A stretch of DNA of 64,000 bases, taken from NCBI RefSeq assembly GCF_001620365.2, contig NZ_LQMT02000014.1, positions 33,478 to 97,477 on the forward strand, written 5' to 3'. This document shows positions 27,759 to 35,738 of this stretch, piece by piece; the first letter of the stretch is position 1, and each line of letters starts with the position of its first letter. A program made the translations under genes and the position numbers. Origin of the DNA: Amycolatopsis keratiniphila subsp. keratiniphila (GTDB lineage: Bacteria; Actinomycetota; Actinomycetes; Mycobacteriales; Pseudonocardiaceae). A model generated the notes under the pieces. It saw only the letters and a list, made by a program, of their open reading frames with translations, did not search any database and was not told the origin of the DNA.

Positions 27759-28829
27759 CTACACCGTCAGGATCGACCGCAACCCGCCGACCTCGGCCAT
27801 CCGGCGTTCGGCCAGCCGGTCCGCCGCCGTCGCCGGCGGGACACCGTCGGCCTTCGCCAGCGCGAAGACCGCCTTGGTGGTGTCGAAGATGGCCGTCGTC
27901 TTGCGCTTGGCGCGCGCGAAGTCGAAGCCGTGCCGCTCGTCGTCGACCTGGATCACGCCACCGGCGTTGACCAGGTAGTCCGGCGCGAACAGGATGCCGC
28001 GGTCGTCGAGCTGCTTGCCGACGCCCGGATGCGCGAGCTGGTTGTTGGCCGCGCCGCAGACGATCTTGGAGCGGAGCAGGCCGACCGTCTCGTCGGTGAG
28101 CACCCCGCCCAGCGCGCACGGCGCGAAGACGTCGAGTTCGGTGCGGATCAGCGCGTCGAGGTCTTCGACGACCTCGACCCCGGGGTACGCCGCGCGGGTG
28201 CGTTCGATCGCCGCGGGCGAGACGTCGGTGATGACCACCTGCGCGCCCGCCTCGATCAGATGTCCGACCAGGATGTGCCCGACCTTGCCGACCCCGGCGA
28301 CGCCGACCTTGCGGCCCGCGAGTTCCGGGACACCCCAGACGGCGTCCGCGGAGGCGCGCATGCCCTGGTAGGTCCCGAAAGCGGTGAGCACCGAGGAGTC
28401 GCCGGCGCCGCCGTTCTCCGGCGAGCGGCCCGTGACGAACTCCGATTCACGGGCGACGATGTCCATGTCCTGCACGTAGGTGCCCACGTCGCAGGCGGTG
28501 ATGTAGCGGCCGCCCAACGTCTGGACGAACCGGCCGAAGGCGCGAAGCAGCGCTTCGGTCTTGTGCTTCTGGGGGTCGCCGATGATGACGGCCTTGCCGC
28601 CGCCGAGGTCCAGCCCGGCGAGCGCGTTCTTGTACGCCATCCCCTTCGACAGCGCGAGGACGTCCGCGAGCGCGGCGTCTTCGGATTCGTAGGGGTAGAA
28701 CCGGGTCCCGCCCAGCGACGGCCCGAGCGCCGTCGAGTAGATCCCGATGATGGCCTTCAGGCCGGTGGCCTGGTCTTGACAGAAGACGACCTGTTCATGG
28801 CCGGTACCTTGGCCGAACACTTCGGTCAC
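27759..28829 (-). CDS. vdh: Leu/Val-type amino-acid dehydrogenase
   Basis: A 356-residue Glu/Leu/Phe/Val dehydrogenase, the branched-chain type that deaminates valine or leucine to the oxo acid with NAD. Seen: [10 protein letters not shown], catalytic lysine region [27 protein letters not shown], Rossmann [16 protein letters not shown] near residue 180, and [13 protein letters not shown]. Start GTG 28829, with AAGGAG eight bases upstream. The 5' extension to 28943 is not conserved-looking. Assignment to valine rather than leucine or phenylalanine is by actinomycete precedent only. Confidence 0.85.
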
Positions 28830-28988
28830 TGTGGTGACTCCTTGTCCTGGAGTGCACGCTGCTTGTGGCTCACGTGCGAAGTTCCTGCAACAAGGCACAG
28901 TCCCCGACGAAGGTCGTCCGGCGGCGACGGTGCCACATCGCAAACCTAGATCGCCCCGGTCCGTTCGCCAAGCCGGGGCCGAGGTGTC

Positions 28989-30182
28989 TCAGCCGTTGAC
29001 GACCTCTCGAAGGACATGGAGCGCGGAATCGAGCTGCCGGTCGGACAGATATGGCGCCGGCCCGAACCTCAGGTACACGCCGCGGCTGTCGGTCCGGACA
29101 CCGCGTTCGGCGAGCGCGGCCTGCAGCGCACCGGCGTCGGCGCATTTCAGCGACAGGAAGCCGCCGATACGGTCCAGCGGCGTTTCCCGGTCGCGGGTGA
29201 CGACGTCCTCGGGCAGCCCGAGCCGGTCGAAGCCCTCGGCGAGGAAACCCACCTGGTGCCGCGACACCTCGCGCAGGAACTCGGGCGTGAGCCCGTGCTC
29301 GGCGAAGAACCGGAAGACGCGAGCGCCCCGGTAGTGGCTCGTCGGGTCGTAGGTCGCTCCGGCGAACCTGTCCGATCCGGCGGCGTAGGCGATCTGGCCG
29401 GGCCGGCGCTCGTCCGCGAGCGCGCCGAACTCGGCGTACCAGCCGGTGACGACCGGCCGCAGTTCCTGCGCGTGCGCGGGCATCCGCAGGAAGCAGTTGC
29501 CCTCGCCGAGCTGGAGGTACTTGTATCCGCCGCCGAGCACCCAGGCGTTGGTGAGCCCGAGGTCGTGCAGCGAGAACGGGACGACGCCGAGCGCGTGGTA
29601 GGCGTCGACGACGAGGTTCACCGACTTCGAAAGGCAGACGTCGGCGAGATGCGCGAGGCCCGGCACGAGCCGGGAGGTCTCGAACAGCACCGCCGAGACG
29701 AGCACGGCGGCGGTGTCTTCGGTGACCTCGGCCGCGACGCGTTCGGCCAGCGTGGCGACCGGCGCCGCGGGGACGCGGACCACCTCGACGCCTTCCTCCG
29801 CCAGCCTGCCCAGCTGACGACGCAGGGTGTGGAACTCGCCGTCGGTGGTGACCAGACGGGGACGGCGAGGCAGGTCCATCGCCGAGAGGAACCGGATCAC
29901 CAGGTCGTGGCTGCTGGCACCGAGCGCGATGGCGCCGTGCGGATCACCGAGCAGCGCCCGGAACCCGGCCCGCATCTCGTCGGCCTTCGCGAAGGCACGG
30001 TCCCATTTCGTGTCGACCTCTTCGGCCGCGTCGGCGAAGGCTTCCAGAAGACCTTCCCGCGCGACGTCCGGCCACGCCTGATGCGAGTGCCCGGTGAGCA
30101 GGATCCGGTCCGCCACACCGAAGGCCTGGTAGTGCTCCGCGAGCGCGTTGGGATCGCGGCGGAGTTCGTCGAGGTTCGTCAA
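28989..30182 (-). CDS. kynU: Kynureninase
   Basis: A PLP enzyme of 397 residues that splits kynurenine to anthranilate and alanine. Seen: TGHSHQAWPD, VTTDGEFHTLRRQL, the cofactor Asp region VNLVVDAYHALGVVP and the PLP-lysine motif GGGYKYLQLGEGNCF. I chose TTG 30182, which overlaps the stop of kynA (TTGA), because the extended frame upstream merely reads kynA in another frame. Coupling with kynA supports the start. No kynurenine formamidase of the usual KynB type is present in the window. Confidence 0.9.
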   Translation of the reverse strand: MTNLDELRRDPNALAEHYQAFGVADRILLTGHSHQAWPDVAREGLLEAFADAAEEVDTKWDRAFAKADEMRAGFRALLGDPHGAIALGASSHDLVIRFLSAMDLPRRPRLVTTDGEFHTLRRQLGRLAEEGVEVVRVPAAPVATLAERVAAEVTEDTAAVLVSAVLFETSRLVPGLAHLADVCLSKSVNLVVDAYHALGVVPFSLHDLGLTNAWVLGGGYKYLQLGEGNCFLRMPAHAQELRPVVTGWYAEFGALADERRPGQIAYAAGSDRFAGATYDPTSHYRGARVFRFFAEHGLTPEFLREVSRHQVGFLAEGFDRLGLPEDVVTRDRETPLDRIGGFLSLKCADAGALQAALAERGVRTDSRGVYLRFGPAPYLSDRQLDSALHVLREVVNG

Positions 30183-30961
30183 AGCCTGCTCCGCACCGCC
30201 CAGAGATCCGGGAACATCGGGGAGAAAAGCGTCGTACGCAGATAGTGCGCGCCCGACGAACCCCCCGTCCCGGTCTTGTCTCCGATGGTGCGCTCGACCA
30301 TCTTCACGTGCCGATACCGCCACTCCTGCATCCCTTCGTCCAGATCGACCAGGTGCTCCGCCACGACGGACGGCCCGGTGTCGTCGCGGTACACCCGCAA
30401 CAGAACCTCTTGGAGCGCCGGAGAGGGTTCGAGTGGCTTGGTGACATCGCGCCCGGTCGGGACGTCGTACTCCTTCACCGCGAGGTAGGTGACGAAGGAG
30501 TCGAAGAGCGACGGCCGTGACATCGCGTCCGCGATCTGGGCACGCTGTTCACCGCCTTCGGGGTAATGCGCGAACACCCGCTCGTCCCGGCGGCCGAGGA
30601 CGGCCTCCAGGACACGGAACTGAGCAGACTGGAACCCGCTCGACGCGTCGAGTCGCGCACGGAAACTGGTGAACTGGCTCGGAGTCATCGTCTCGAGCAC
30701 ATCGATCTGCGCGACCACCACCTTGAAGATAGTCAGGATTCGGCGCAAAGTGCGGACGGCGTGAGCGGTGTTACCCGCTTCGAGTTGCTCCTGCAGGTAA
30801 AGCGCCTCGTGGAGAACTTGTTTGAACCAAAGTTCATACACTTGGTGGATCACGATGAAGAGCAATTCGTCGTGCTCGTCGGACCGCGGATGCTGGGCGT
30901 CCAGCAATTCGTCCAGCGAAAGGTAGGACGTGTAACTCAATGCGGCCTGAGTGTCGTTCAT
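30179..30961 (-). CDS. kynA: Tryptophan 2,3-dioxygenase
   Basis: A 260-residue haem enzyme that opens tryptophan to N-formylkynurenine, the first step of the kynurenine pathway. Distal pocket: FIVIHQVYELWFKQVLHE (His near residue 39). Proximal haem ligand: YRHVKMVERTIG, followed by the substrate loop GTGGSSGAHYL. The length suits short bacterial KynA. The gene starts an operon with kynU (4-base overlap). A 169-base gap separates it from the PaaX-type regulator encoded upstream on the same strand. Confidence 0.93.
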   Translation of the reverse strand: MNDTQAALSYTSYLSLDELLDAQHPRSDEHDELLFIVIHQVYELWFKQVLHEALYLQEQLEAGNTAHAVRTLRRILTIFKVVVAQIDVLETMTPSQFTSFRARLDASSGFQSAQFRVLEAVLGRRDERVFAHYPEGGEQRAQIADAMSRPSLFDSFVTYLAVKEYDVPTGRDVTKPLEPSPALQEVLLRVYRDDTGPSVVAEHLVDLDEGMQEWRYRHVKMVERTIGDKTGTGGSSGAHYLRTTLFSPMFPDLWAVRSRL

Positions 30962-31130
30962 TTTTCTGTCACTCCATCGATATCGCGCCGACCGTGATCG
31001 CGCTGCCAGGGCGCACTCTTCCCGATCAGCGCACGTTGCCCACGACGGCGCCCTGCCATCGCGATCACGGGGCCTTCCGGCCGAAAACGGCGCGACCCCG
31101 AAAAGATCAAGAGCCCCTTCCGGTCACCTG

Positions 31131-31952
31131 TCACTTTTCTGTCACCTCGTCGAAATGGCGTTGCGCCGCCGGGGCCAGCGCCTGATAGAGATCATGGAAC
31201 AACTCGACCGCCGCCGCCCGGCTCGGCGGAGCGGGCACCAGCCCGACCGGAAGTTCCGGATCGAGCGACGGGAAGGCGCGGAACGTATGCGTCAGCCAGG
31301 TTCGGACCTGGAACGCCTCGGCGTCGGGCAGGTCGCCTGAATATCCGCCGAAATCCCGGACGAAAGCGTCGTACCGCGCGGCGAGGCCGTCGAGGTTCCA
31401 CGCCCGCGCGGCGAACCGCCGCACATCGAGACCCGCCGACGGCTTCCCGAGCATCAGCCCGGCGTGTTCGGCGACGTCCAGTTCGGCCAGCAGGGCGAGC
31501 ACCTCGGCCTCGCGATCGTGCGGGGCGATCCAGGTGCCGTCCTGGACCGGGCCGAAACCGAGGAAGCGCAGCCGCCGCACCAAGCGCTCCCTGGCCTGGC
31601 GGCGGCTTTCCGGGATGCTCTGCCACAGCACGGTCCACTGCCCGACCTCGCGCTCGCGCCTGCCGAGGGAGAAGATCCGGCGGTCGCCGTCCTCCAGCAG
31701 CGCGATCGTGCGGCGGGTCAGCGAGTAGTGGACGAGCCTGCCCGCCTTGTGTCGCGCGAGCAGGTCGCGCCGGGCGAGCCTGGCCAGCGCGATCCGCGCG
31801 GCGCCGTCGGAGAAGCCGAGCCCGGCGAGCACACCGACCAGGCCGCCGGACCAGACACGACGGCTCTCGCGCGGCGACACGTAGGTGCCGAGCAGCGTCA
31901 TCACCAGCTCCTGGGGGCCTGGGTCGCCGTGGGGCGGGGCCGAATCGGGCAT
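31131..31952 (-). CDS. PaaX family transcriptional regulator
   Basis: A 273-residue PaaX-type repressor. N-terminal winged helix (residues about 12-80; LVMTLLGTYVSPRESRRVWSGGLV, FSDGAARIALARLARRDLL), central PaaX domain and the C-terminal region TWLTHTFRAFPSLDPELP. PaaX responds to phenylacetyl-CoA; relatives use other aryl-CoA esters. It is divergent from the aryl-CoA ligase operon across a 48-base gap with a TACACC/GGTGTA palindrome and is followed by kynA-kynU on the same strand. I infer control of both by an aryl-CoA such as anthraniloyl-CoA. Confidence 0.88.
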   Translation of the reverse strand: MPDSAPPHGDPGPQELVMTLLGTYVSPRESRRVWSGGLVGVLAGLGFSDGAARIALARLARRDLLARHKAGRLVHYSLTRRTIALLEDGDRRIFSLGRREREVGQWTVLWQSIPESRRQARERLVRRLRFLGFGPVQDGTWIAPHDREAEVLALLAELDVAEHAGLMLGKPSAGLDVRRFAARAWNLDGLAARYDAFVRDFGGYSGDLPDAEAFQVRTWLTHTFRAFPSLDPELPVGLVPAPPSRAAAVELFHDLYQALAPAAQRHFDEVTEK

Positions 31953-31965
31953 GAGCGCAACTCTA

Positions 31966-31989
31966 TACACCTCAGGCCGCTGCGGTGTA
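31966..31989. promoter_or_regulatory. Candidate PaaX operator
   Basis: TACACC (31966-31971) and GGTGTA (31984-31989) form a perfect 6-bp inverted repeat with 12 bases between, 11 bases before the GTG of the creatininase-family gene and just upstream of paaX. The short leader suggests that the operon transcript starts near this site. Confidence 0.5.
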
Positions 31990-32000
31990 GCTTGATTCGA

Positions 32001-32726
32001 GTGACGTACTTCGCGGAGTTGAGCTCACCTCAGGTGGCCGCGCTCGCGTCCGACGCGCGCGTTCCCGTGCTGCTGCTCCCGGTGGGCGCCGTCGAGCCGC
32101 ACGGACCGCACGCGCCACTGGGCACCGATCCCCTGATCTCGCGCGGGATGTGCGAACGCGCCGCCGCGCGGCTGGCAGGCGATCCCGGCTTGCGCGTGCT
32201 GATCCTGCCCGAGGTGCCGTACGGGGTGACGCGGTTCGCCGCCGGGTTCGCGGGCGGCGTCTCGATCGGCGAAGAGACCCTGTACGCGCTGCTGACCGAG
32301 ATCTGCGAAGCACTCACCGAACAGGGACTCACCCGGATCCTGCTGGTCAACAATCATTTCGAACCGGCGCATCTTGCCGTGCTGCGGCGGGTGGCGGAGA
32401 CGGCGGGCGTCGGCTTCGTCGACCTCGTCCGCCGCCGGTACGCCGCGCGGCTCACCGAAGAGTTCCGCTCCGGCGAATGCCATGCCGGGCAGTACGAGAC
32501 GTCGCTGGTGCTCGCCGATCGGCCGGATCTCGTCGACGCCACCGTCCAGCGCGGACTGCCCGCGGTCCACGTCGACCTGGCGCGCGGCGGGGTCACGGAT
32601 TTCGCCTCGGCCGGGATGACCGAGGCCTACTGCGGAACCCCCGCCCAGGCGACCGCCGAGGAAGGCGAGAAGACCTTCTCGGTGCTCACCGACATCCTGG
32701 TCGAAGCGATCCGGGAGCTGGTATGA
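32001..32726 (+). CDS. Creatininase-family amidohydrolase
   Basis: A 241-residue metal-dependent amidohydrolase. Metal and catalytic residues of the family are visible: PVGAVEPHGPHAPLGTDPL (Glu, His, Asp), NNHFEPAH, and CHAGQYETS with its Glu. The family includes creatininase, MftE and the archaeal formamide hydrolase ArfB. It is the first gene of an operon with an aryl-CoA ligase, and near kynA/kynU, which lack a formamidase; a role in hydrolysing N-formylkynurenine or another amide of the pathway is a hypothesis. Start GTG 32001; the frame upstream is antisense to paaX. Confidence 0.85.
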   Translation: MTYFAELSSPQVAALASDARVPVLLLPVGAVEPHGPHAPLGTDPLISRGMCERAAARLAGDPGLRVLILPEVPYGVTRFAAGFAGGVSIGEETLYALLTEICEALTEQGLTRILLVNNHFEPAHLAVLRRVAETAGVGFVDLVRRRYAARLTEEFRSGECHAGQYETSLVLADRPDLVDATVQRGLPAVHVDLARGGVTDFASAGMTEAYCGTPAQATAEEGEKTFSVLTDILVEAIRELV

Positions 32727-34225
32727 CCTTCAATCTGGCGACCCATTTCGTGGACCGCCTTCCCGGGCATCGGACGGCGTTGCTGTGCGGCGACGAGGAA
32801 ATCACCTATGCGCGGCTTGGGACGCTGGTGAACCGGGCCGGGAACGTGCTGCGCGAACTCGGTGTCCGAAGTGGACAACGGGTCCTGCTGGCGCTGAACG
32901 ACGGCGTGGAGTTCGTGGCCGTCTGGTACGCGGCGCAGAAGATCGGCGCGGTCACCGCCGAGGTCTATTCCTTCCTGCAGCCCAAGGATTACGCGTACTA
33001 CCTCGGCTACACCGAGGCCGTCGTCGTCATCGCGGACGCCTCGACGTTGCCCGCGCTGCGCGAAGCCGGGGCACGGAACCTGCTGGTCGTCGGCGACGTG
33101 GAGCTGCTGCCCGGCGAGCACTCGTTCTCCACGCTGACCGCCTCGGCATCGGACGAGCTGGAAGCCGCTCCGACCACACTCGACGACGTCGCGATCTGGA
33201 AGTTCACCACCGGCAGCACCGGCGCGCCCAAGGCGTGCGTGCACCCGGCGCGCAGCGCGCTGGAAAGCTTCGACCGGTACGCGCTCGGCGTGCTCGGTCT
33301 CCGCGAGGACGACCGCGTGCTGGCCGTGCCGAAGCTGTTCTTCGGCTACGCGCGCGACTTGACGGCCTTGTTCCCGTTCGGCGTCGGCGCGTCCGGCATC
33401 GTCTTCCCGCAGCGCAGCACCGCCGACCTGCTGTTCTCGCTGATCGAGCGCTACCGGCCGACGATCCTGGTCAACGTGCCGACCATGATGAGTGCGATGA
33501 TCGCCCACCCCGCGGCGTCTACTGTGGACATGAGCTCGCTACGGCTGGCGACGTCGGCGGGTGAGGCCTTGCCGTCCGAGCTGCATCGCAAGTGGGACAA
33601 CCTGTTCGGTGTCCCGGTGATCGACGGGATCGGCTCGTCGGAGGCGTACCACATCTATCTGTCCAACGTGCCCGGCGCGCAGCGGGTCGGCAGCCTCGGC
33701 CGCGAGGTCCCCGGCTACACCGCCCGCGTACTGGACGAGAGCGGCGATCCGTTGCCGGACGGGGAGATCGGCACCCTGGAGGTGACCGGCCCGACCATCG
33801 CCCGCGAGTACCACGGCGACGCGGAGAAGACCGCGCGGACCTTCCACGGCGACACCCTGCGCACCGGCGACCTGTTCAGCCGCGACACCGACGGGTACTT
33901 CCACCACCACGGCCGCGCCGACGACCTGCTGAAGGTGTCCGGTGTGTTCGTCGCGCCGAGCGAGATCGAAGACTGTCTCATCGGTCATCCCGCCGTCGTC
34001 GACTGCGCGGTGCTGGGCGTGACCGTCGACGGCCTCGTCGTCCCGCGGGCGTGCGTCGTCCTGGCGGAGGGCGCTTCCGTCACGGCCGAGGAACTCAAGG
34101 ACCACGCGCGGGCCCACCTGGCGAAGCACAAATACCCGCGCGAGGTGGTGTTCGTGACCGAACTCCCCCGCACCGCCAACGGAAAACTCGATCGGCGCGC
34201 GCTGCGCCGGGTGGAGGCAGAGTGA
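32723..34225 (+). CDS. Aryl-CoA ligase (benzoate-CoA ligase family)
   Basis: A 500-residue ATP-dependent acyl-CoA synthetase of the benzoate/anthranilate-CoA ligase group. AMP-binding motifs: FTTGSTGAPKACVHPA (P-loop), DGIGSSEAYHIYLSN, GRADDLLKVSGVFVAPSE and the C-terminal RTANGKLDRRAL with the catalytic Lys. The N-terminal VEFVAVWYAAQKIGAVTAEVYSFLQPKDYAYYL is typical of benzoate-CoA ligases. It overlaps the preceding gene by ATGA. With kynureninase nearby, anthranilate is a reasonable substrate; benzoate or salicylate are alternatives. Confidence 0.88.
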   Translation: MTFNLATHFVDRLPGHRTALLCGDEEITYARLGTLVNRAGNVLRELGVRSGQRVLLALNDGVEFVAVWYAAQKIGAVTAEVYSFLQPKDYAYYLGYTEAVVVIADASTLPALREAGARNLLVVGDVELLPGEHSFSTLTASASDELEAAPTTLDDVAIWKFTTGSTGAPKACVHPARSALESFDRYALGVLGLREDDRVLAVPKLFFGYARDLTALFPFGVGASGIVFPQRSTADLLFSLIERYRPTILVNVPTMMSAMIAHPAASTVDMSSLRLATSAGEALPSELHRKWDNLFGVPVIDGIGSSEAYHIYLSNVPGAQRVGSLGREVPGYTARVLDESGDPLPDGEIGTLEVTGPTIAREYHGDAEKTARTFHGDTLRTGDLFSRDTDGYFHHHGRADDLLKVSGVFVAPSEIEDCLIGHPAVVDCAVLGVTVDGLVVPRACVVLAEGASVTAEELKDHARAHLAKHKYPREVVFVTELPRTANGKLDRRALRRVEAE

Positions 34226-34914
34226 GCAGGATCGTCGTCGTCACCGGCGGGACCCGCGGGATCGGCGCGGCCATCGCCGCCCGGTTCCGGGCCGCAGGCG
34301 ACAAGGTGCACGCCCCCGGCCGGGCCGACTGCAACGTCACCGACGAAGACGCCGTCGCGCGGTACTTCGACGGTCTCGGGCCGGTGGACGTGCTGGTGAA
34401 CAACGCCGGGATCTCGGCGAGCGCCCCGCTGGCGAAGACCTCGCTGGAGCAGTGGCGGACCCAGCTCGAAGTCAACGCGACCGGCGCTTTCCTGTGCACA
34501 CGGGCGGTTCTGCCCGGCATGCGGGCGCGCGACACCGGGCGGATCGTCACCGTCGCCTCGACGGCGTCGCATATCGGCTACCGCTACACGGCCGGCTACA
34601 CCGCGTCGAAGCACGCCGCCGTCGGCCTGATGCGGGCGACCGCCGCGGAAATGGCGGGCACCGGCGTCACCGCGAACGCCGTCTGCCCGGCCTTCGTACG
34701 CACGGATATGACGGCCGCCTCCGTCGCCCGGATCCAAGAACGGACCGGCCGCGGCGAAGCCGACGCGGAAGCCGCCCTCGCCGCCGCGTCGCCGCTCGGC
34801 CGCCTGCTCGAACCCGACGAGGTCGCCTACGCGGTGGCCTTCTTCGCGGCGCCCAAGGCGGCCGCGATCAACGGACAGACACTCGTCCTCGATGGAGGTG
34901 GGATCCAGTCATGA
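34222..34914 (+). CDS. Short-chain dehydrogenase/reductase
   Basis: A 230-residue classical SDR. Cofactor motif VTGGTRGIGAAIA (residues 6-18), NNAGISAS, catalytic Ser in VASTAS and YxxxK in YTASKHAAVG, then VCPAFVRTDM. It probably oxidises a 3-hydroxyacyl-CoA (FabG/HbdH type) in the same pathway as its operon partners. Start GTG 34222 overlaps the ligase stop (GTGA). The C-terminal GQTLVLDGG is canonical. Confidence 0.88.
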   Translation: MSRIVVVTGGTRGIGAAIAARFRAAGDKVHAPGRADCNVTDEDAVARYFDGLGPVDVLVNNAGISASAPLAKTSLEQWRTQLEVNATGAFLCTRAVLPGMRARDTGRIVTVASTASHIGYRYTAGYTASKHAAVGLMRATAAEMAGTGVTANAVCPAFVRTDMTAASVARIQERTGRGEADAEAALAAASPLGRLLEPDEVAYAVAFFAAPKAAAINGQTLVLDGGGIQS

Positions 34915-35738
34915 GCCCGTTCCGCGCCACGCCGCCGATCACGACGGACTGGGAGCATTTCGAGTTCGCCGTGGACGACGGCGTTGCCACGGTCACCTTG
35001 AACCGCCCCGACAAACTGAACGCGCTCACCTTCGACAGCTACGCCGACCTGCGTGACCTGCTGGCCGAACTGCCGCATCGGGGCGACGTCCGGGTGCTGA
35101 TCATCACCGGGCAGGGGCGGGGTTTCTGCTCCGGCGGCGACGTCGAAGAGATCATCGGCGAGCTGCAGAAGATGGAGTCCGCGGAACTGCTGGAGTTCAC
35201 GCGGATGACCGGCGCGGTGGTGAAGGCTCTGCGGGAATGCCCCATCCCGGTGATCGCCGCGGTGAACGGTGTCGCCGCGGGCGCGGGCTCGGTGATCGCG
35301 CTGGCGAGCGACTTCCGGCTGCTCGCGTCGTCGGCGAAGTTCGCCTTCCTGTTCACGAAGGTCGGCCTGGCCGGCGCGGACATGGGCTCGGCGTACCTGC
35401 TGCCACGCCTGGTCGGGCTGGGCCGGGCGACGGAACTGCTGATGCTGGGCGACAAGATCGACGCCACCCGGGCCGAGGCCATCGGACTGGCTTCTCAGGT
35501 CGTTCCCGACTCCGACTTGGCCACTGCCGCCTCTGCTTTGGCGCGGCGTTTGGCCGACGGGCCGGCTTTGGCGTACAGCACGACGAAGGTGCTGCTGACG
35601 CGTGAGCTCGACATGGATTTGGGGAGTTCCATCGAGCTGGAGGCGATCACGCAGGCTTTGCTTATGACGGCGAAGGATCACGGGGAGTTCTATGCGGCCT
35701 GGACGGCTGGGCGTTCGCCTCAGTGGACCGGTCGGTGA
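34911..35738 (+). CDS. Enoyl-CoA hydratase/isomerase family protein
   Basis: A 275-residue crotonase. Oxyanion hole residues lie in LNRPDKLNALT and GRGFCSGGDVEEI, and the second in VNGVAAGAGSVIALASDFRL (about residue 110). The active-site segment FTKVGLAGADMGSAYLLPRLVG has an Asp at the position of a catalytic Glu or Asp in many hydratases. It overlaps the SDR gene by 4 bases and ends the operon. The set of ligase, SDR and hydratase suggests ring cleavage followed by beta-oxidation. Confidence 0.9.
   Translation: MSPFRATPPITTDWEHFEFAVDDGVATVTLNRPDKLNALTFDSYADLRDLLAELPHRGDVRVLIITGQGRGFCSGGDVEEIIGELQKMESAELLEFTRMTGAVVKALRECPIPVIAAVNGVAAGAGSVIALASDFRLLASSAKFAFLFTKVGLAGADMGSAYLLPRLVGLGRATELLMLGDKIDATRAEAIGLASQVVPDSDLATAASALARRLADGPALAYSTTKVLLTRELDMDLGSSIELEAITQALLMTAKDHGEFYAAWTAGRSPQWTGR

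Follow-up and report, generated by a model that had tools for sequence, protein, structure and literature searches.

A 64,000-nucleotide stretch of the genome of Amycolatopsis keratiniphila subsp. keratiniphila (contig NZ_LQMT02000014.1; hereafter the window) carries two divergent sets of genes that we read, with a shade more confidence than doubt, as the upper part of a tryptophan catabolic route in which a creatininase-type hydrolase would act as the deformylase. On the minus strand lie the genes for a pyridoxal-phosphate enzyme that we call KynU-like (28989..30182, with a probable TTG start at 30182; our searches used the 28989-30191 version of the protein), for the tryptophan 2,3-dioxygenase KynA (30179..30961) and for a PaaX-family regulator (31131..31952). 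The likely TTG start of the KynU-like gene overlaps the stop of kynA. The plus strand encodes a creatininase-family metal hydrolase (32001..32726), a benzoate/anthranilate-type coenzyme A (CoA) ligase (32723..34225), a short-chain dehydrogenase (SDR; 34222..34914) and an enoyl-CoA hydratase family protein (ECH; 34911..35738). Each junction among these four genes is a 4-base overlap, which suggests that they form one transcription unit. All seven genes stand where an earlier, sequence-only reading of the window had placed them, and profile scans name their families, kynU being the one weak name.

That reading had called the first two genes kynA and kynU. The first name stands: KynA scores 207.4 bits against the Pfam profile PF03301 (cut-off 34.9), placing it in the tryptophan 2,3-dioxygenase family, and matches such enzymes in the PDB with E values down to 6.7e-52; its TIGR03036 score, 268.4 bits, lies below the equivalog cut-off of 390.7. 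The second does not stand as a plain kynureninase. The KynU-like protein reaches 23.5 bits against TIGR01814 (equivalog cut-off 246.4) and 24 bits against the Pfam profile KYNU_C (cut-off 27), and most of its sequence matches in the PDB are cysteine desulfurases. A profile alignment to eight canonical kynureninases from control loci gave a probability of 99.4%, and the best match to its predicted fold (predicted local distance difference test score, pLDDT, 89.4) is the kynureninase of P. fluorescens (1qz9; template modelling score 0.78), with cysteine desulfurases close behind. Profile alignment and predicted fold together point to a very divergent, remote kynureninase relative that may still act as a kynureninase. 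A near-canonical kynureninase is encoded elsewhere in the genome, on contig C13 (242.8 bits, cut-off 246.4).

The remaining partners are assigned more readily. At 441.2 bits the ligase exceeds the cut-off of the TIGR02262 subfamily (375.25), and its closest PDB entries, the anthranilate-CoA ligase 4wv3 (344.5 bits) and the benzoate-CoA ligase 2v7b (344.1 bits), are tied; the choice between anthranilate and benzoate lies beyond the reach of its sequence. The SDR matches PF13561 with 151.7 bits, and ECH matches NF006107 with 408.5 bits (cut-off 330). The N-terminal, middle and C-terminal domains of the regulator all score above their cut-offs (PF07848, PF20803 and PF08223), and its score against TIGR02277, the equivalog for the phenylacetate PaaX, is 151.5 bits, below the cut-off of 264.55.

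The hydrolase belongs to the creatininase superfamily, with 177.6 bits against PF02633 (gathering score 31.3) and a predicted fold (pLDDT 96.2) that aligns to creatininase with a Z score of 24.9. Residues E32, H34, D43, H119 and E166 are invariant in 48 homologues, and E/D121 and H161 are conserved in 47; we take E32, H34, D43, H119 and E/D121 to be metal ligands and assume catalytic roles for the conserved positions. Although the fold and the metal and catalytic residues are common to creatininase and MftE, the protein falls below the cut-offs of both (TIGR04448, 75.5 bits against 235; TIGR03964, 108.7 bits against 172). Nor is it a KynB arylformamidase (PF04199/TIGR03035), as it matches PF02633 only and has the predicted fold of creatininase. 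With its homologues it forms a branch of its own among 27 other creatininase-family proteins (support 99/97, with a long-branch warning), and members of this clade are reported in Actinomycetota, Myxococcota, Gemmatimonadota, Planctomycetota, Acidobacteriota and Pseudomonadota. A precedent for deformylation within the superfamily is BrbF, a riboflavin formamidase that deformylates a riboflavin precursor, as described in PMC9478397. BrbF serves a different pathway, and the likeness drawn here is that of superfamily and of deformylation.

A route from tryptophan through anthranilate to anthraniloyl-CoA had been proposed for the locus, with the 2-aminobenzoyl-CoA monooxygenase/reductase (ACMR) noted as absent from the window. 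ACMR is indeed outside it, and a genome search found the enzyme on another contig (C10), at 1240.8 bits against a curated cut-off of 1078, together with RidA, an acyl-CoA dehydrogenase (ACAD) and a second PaaX. With the window ligase, SDR and ECH, this makes the pathway gene set complete in outline, and the proposed route gains support from it and from relatives in which ACMR lies within the same locus. Compared with the Arthrobacter Rue61a homologue, encoded on pAL1, the ACMR shows 67.6% identity; for that strain PMC3534580 reports two anthranilate-CoA ligases shown by assay and the detection of anthraniloyl-CoA and related CoA esters in anthranilate-grown cells. The aerobic 2-aminobenzoyl-CoA pathway of Azoarcus evansii (abm) and Rue61a likewise has a CoA ligase, ACMR, RidA, beta-oxidation genes and PaaX regulators. 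The Amycolatopsis set differs in being split over two contigs and fed by KynA and the KynU-like enzyme; its ligase is only 33.5% identical to a Rue61a ligase, and pAL1 carries no creatininase-family gene.

From gene content, order and conservation we infer the following sequence of reactions. KynA would open the indole ring of tryptophan to give N-formylkynurenine. The creatininase-family hydrolase would take off the formyl group, either from N-formylkynurenine or, after the KynU-like enzyme, from N-formylanthranilate, and the KynU-like enzyme would split off alanine. The ligase would then produce anthraniloyl-CoA, which ACMR could dearomatise to 2-amino-5-oxocyclohexenecarboxyl-CoA; RidA may aid loss of the amino group, and SDR, ECH and ACAD could carry out ring opening and degradation by beta-oxidation.

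The neighbourhood is conserved in Pseudonocardiaceae. The hydrolase is encoded in 65 of 297 family genomes (E<=1e-30), among them Amycolatopsis, Prauserella, Kibdelosporangium, Actinophytocola and others, and in all 64 loci that we fetched besides the window KynA lies beside it and divergent from it. Given this, and since the same combination recurs in other phyla, where KynA, the KynU-like enzyme, ligase and hydrolase occur together in six loci, the arrangement is not due to chance. The KynU-like gene is absent from 3 of the 64, and ACMR shares the locus in 32, usually in the order paaX, then LLM-ACMR-hydrolase-ligase-SDR-ECH-RidA-ACAD. The luciferase-like (LLM) flavin enzyme (PF00296) that opens the relatives' ACMR operon is seen at L107:3447-4265 and in other loci. 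This conservation across many genera and phyla, together with the degradative character of SDR, ECH, RidA, ACAD and ACMR, speaks against a role of the locus in supplying anthraniloyl-CoA to a natural product. Amycolatopsis make many natural products, and the structure closest to the ligase by sequence is that of an anthranilate-CoA ligase, just ahead of a benzoate ligase; we nevertheless regard such a role as very improbable.

Which half of the pathway the hydrolase serves is a harder question, and several observations weigh against a deformylase acting on the kynurenine side. We compared all 87 fetched loci with a kynA of the window type, judging intactness of the hydrolase by motif; the set omits 14 further places with this kynA type, 12 in hydrolase-free genomes and two that are second copies. 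All 59 loci with an intact hydrolase have the ligase, as against none of the 5 with a degenerate copy and 2 of the 23 without one, so that the hydrolase is present in 59 of 61 ligase-bearing loci. ACMR is found in 50 of the 59 intact-hydrolase genomes (32 linked, 18 elsewhere) and another 8 fall outside the ACMR test; G291 combines hydrolase and ligase and has no ACMR match. Among the 28 genomes without an intact hydrolase, 20 were tested for ACMR and 6 were positive. Twelve loci keep KynA and the KynU-like enzyme with no copy of the hydrolase and two more with a degenerate one, and none of these 14 genomes is among those with a KynB match. In the five degenerate copies (L101-L105) metal or catalytic positions are lost, and the five genomes lack an ACMR match. 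Two loci, L106 and L107, have KynA, the KynU-like enzyme, ACMR and ligase and no hydrolase. These ligase and ACMR counts indicate that the hydrolase follows the CoA half of the pathway more than it follows kynA and the KynU-like gene. Four same-genus loci have lost both the hydrolase and the ligase and retain the KynU-like gene, kynA, paaX, SDR and ECH. Loci in which the hydrolase and KynA stand without any CoA genes could suggest a kynurenine-side role; that reading is rejected, since the L101-L105 copies are degenerate.

The same trend extends beyond the family. A scan of a species collection gave 79 hydrolase loci, of which we analysed the 41 outside Pseudonocardiaceae and, of the other 38 (Pseudonocardiaceae by match or label), only L212 and L238. 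Many of the 41 contigs are short; the ligase is linked in 35, SDR and ECH in 14 each, ACAD in 13, RidA in 12, and ACMR, KynA and the KynU-like enzyme in 6 each, so that the hydrolase is often found with the ligase and without linked KynA or KynU-like enzyme. As the ligase is thus its most constant neighbour, the hydrolase might free anthranilate for its partner from some other amide, such as an N-acylanthranilate or a compound yet to be named. A parallel exists on plasmid pRLCBG43, where an alpha/beta hydrolase, presumably an N-octanoylanthranilate hydrolase, lies beside a quinolone dioxygenase and near an ACMR cluster. We consider this quite unlikely, as no amide-making gene is recognised in the window and KynA adjoins the hydrolase in every fetched family locus.

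A weightier alternative, though still a minority view, places the hydrolase downstream of the ligase, where it would act on a ring or an amide intermediate, for example by opening the ring of a cyclic ketone CoA ester; the kyn genes would then do no more than supply the pathway. The close association of the hydrolase with ligase and ACMR and its decay in their absence fit that idea; so do the presence of ACMR in 27 of the 41 hydrolase genomes outside the family (E<=1e-150) against 42 of 396 genomes in an Actinomycetota sample (at the stricter E<=1e-200), and the distant relative IolN (42.2 bits), a creatininase-family protein listed as 3-dehydro-scyllo-inosose hydrolase. Against it, the 20 ACMR loci fetched from the Actinomycetota sample (four clipped by contig ends) all lack the hydrolase, as do seven plasmid ACMR clusters, from Arthrobacter, Rhodococcus (two), Ruegeria, Paracoccus, Phyllobacterium and Gemmatirosa. 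The rest of the core set, namely ligase, ECH, RidA, ACAD and often SDR, is found in these hydrolase-free loci, and therefore the hydrolase is not a fixed core part of the ACMR pathway; ECH, present in most of them, could open the ring.

The same comparison supports a deformylase. ACMR is linked in 34 of the 87 loci with the window kynA type, and the hydrolase is present in 32 of these KynA-adjoining ACMR loci, as against none of the 20 others. The plasmids of Ruegeria pomeroyi DSS-3 and Rhodococcus NJ-530 likewise place a tryptophan 2,3-dioxygenase beside ACMR, ligase and RidA, but their dioxygenase is of the canonical type, and both clusters carry an HGGYW alpha/beta hydrolase and no creatininase-family gene. 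No kynureninase is listed in the Ruegeria stretch. Within the Actinomycetota sample, one of the 41 ACMR genomes (G342) has a close hydrolase homologue, which neighbours ACMR at a distance of about 3 kb from KynA; four of the five sample genomes with KynA and ACMR within about 8 kb (G414, G466, G488 and G575) have no close homologue there, which counts on the other side. In L121, from another genus, the neighbours of the ACMR gene are canonical kynA and kynureninase genes, and a gene of the isochorismatase family is nearby.

The sequence-only reading had described the formamidase as missing, with no KynB. For KynB this is borne out, as TIGR03035 has no match at E<=1e-20 in the genome; the wider claim of a missing formamidase goes beyond what the search covered, since alpha/beta formamidases were not sought genome-wide. 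The sole PF04199 protein of the genome was considered as a KynB and proved closest to isatin hydrolase. The absence of KynB is itself a weak test of the role of the hydrolase, because only 15 of the 297 family genomes have a KynB match, with KynA in 237. Whether a genome encodes KynA at any place does not discriminate either: 36 of 41 hydrolase genomes and 37 of 41 ACMR genomes do so. An HGGYW alpha/beta hydrolase lies beside kynA in 5 of 17 canonical control loci, compared with none of the 87 loci of the window kynA type. As far as open-licence listings show, the literature holds no creatininase-type kynurenine formamidase.

We favour the deformylase by elimination, because the KynA-fed cluster otherwise has no amide hydrolase, and because BrbF provides a precedent for deformylation in the superfamily. 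Its substrate is less certain. N-formylkynurenine, which fits the order of known reactions, is our tentative first choice; N-formylanthranilate, which agrees with the link to the ligase and with the unusual nature of the KynU-like enzyme, seems to us unlikely taken singly. Because the hydrolase tracks the ligase and degenerates without the CoA genes, N-formylanthranilate or a later intermediate is nearly as good a candidate. The earlier proposal that the hydrolase replaces KynB thus survives as that of a plausible deformylase that may act on N-formylkynurenine. A variant route, shared by several phyla, is similarly doubtful: the KynU-like enzyme would cleave N-formylkynurenine to alanine and N-formylanthranilate, from which a dedicated creatininase-superfamily deformylase would free anthranilate for the ligase. 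Such a route would account both for the association of the hydrolase with the ligase instead of kynA and for the great distance of the KynU-like enzyme from known kynureninases. If the hydrolase does deformylate N-formylkynurenine or N-formylanthranilate, tryptophan breakdown would gain a formamidase fold besides those of KynB and the alpha/beta enzymes, and a clade annotated as 'creatinine amidohydrolases' across six phyla would acquire a function. A tryptophan-to-anthraniloyl-CoA locus that is widespread among Pseudonocardiaceae also emerges from the comparison.

Some other ACMR clusters have a different feeding module. One example pairs an isatin-hydrolase relative and a thiamine-diphosphate enzyme, which together adjoin ACMR in L254, L256, L257 and L267. 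The isatin-hydrolase relative (5nmp, E 7e-82) also lies beside a thiamine-diphosphate enzyme in our strain (L041:5591-7204, L001:1306-2085; contig C62), the latter 52% identical to its counterpart in L254. The pair is possibly a second route to anthranilate.

The locus is probably under PaaX control. Between paaX and the hydrolase gene lies the palindrome TACACC-N12-GGTGTA (31966..31989; 10-nt arms, 90% complementary), a candidate PaaX operator. It has one exact match in the window against a chance mean of 0.5 with mismatches, and is thus not rare by itself. The motif nevertheless recurs at this position in 22 of the 63 loci from relatives; a second palindrome, GTTGAC-N11-GTCAAC, is present there in 27 of the 63. 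An operator common to the window and the strain's own ACMR locus was considered and rejected, as the motif was not found at the latter. A 23-nt inverted repeat (91% complementary) lies between paaX and kynA, at 30992-31070. Downstream of the KynU-like gene, 27759-28943 encodes a probable Leu/Val-type amino-acid dehydrogenase, recognised by eye; several relatives likewise have it next to their kyn genes.

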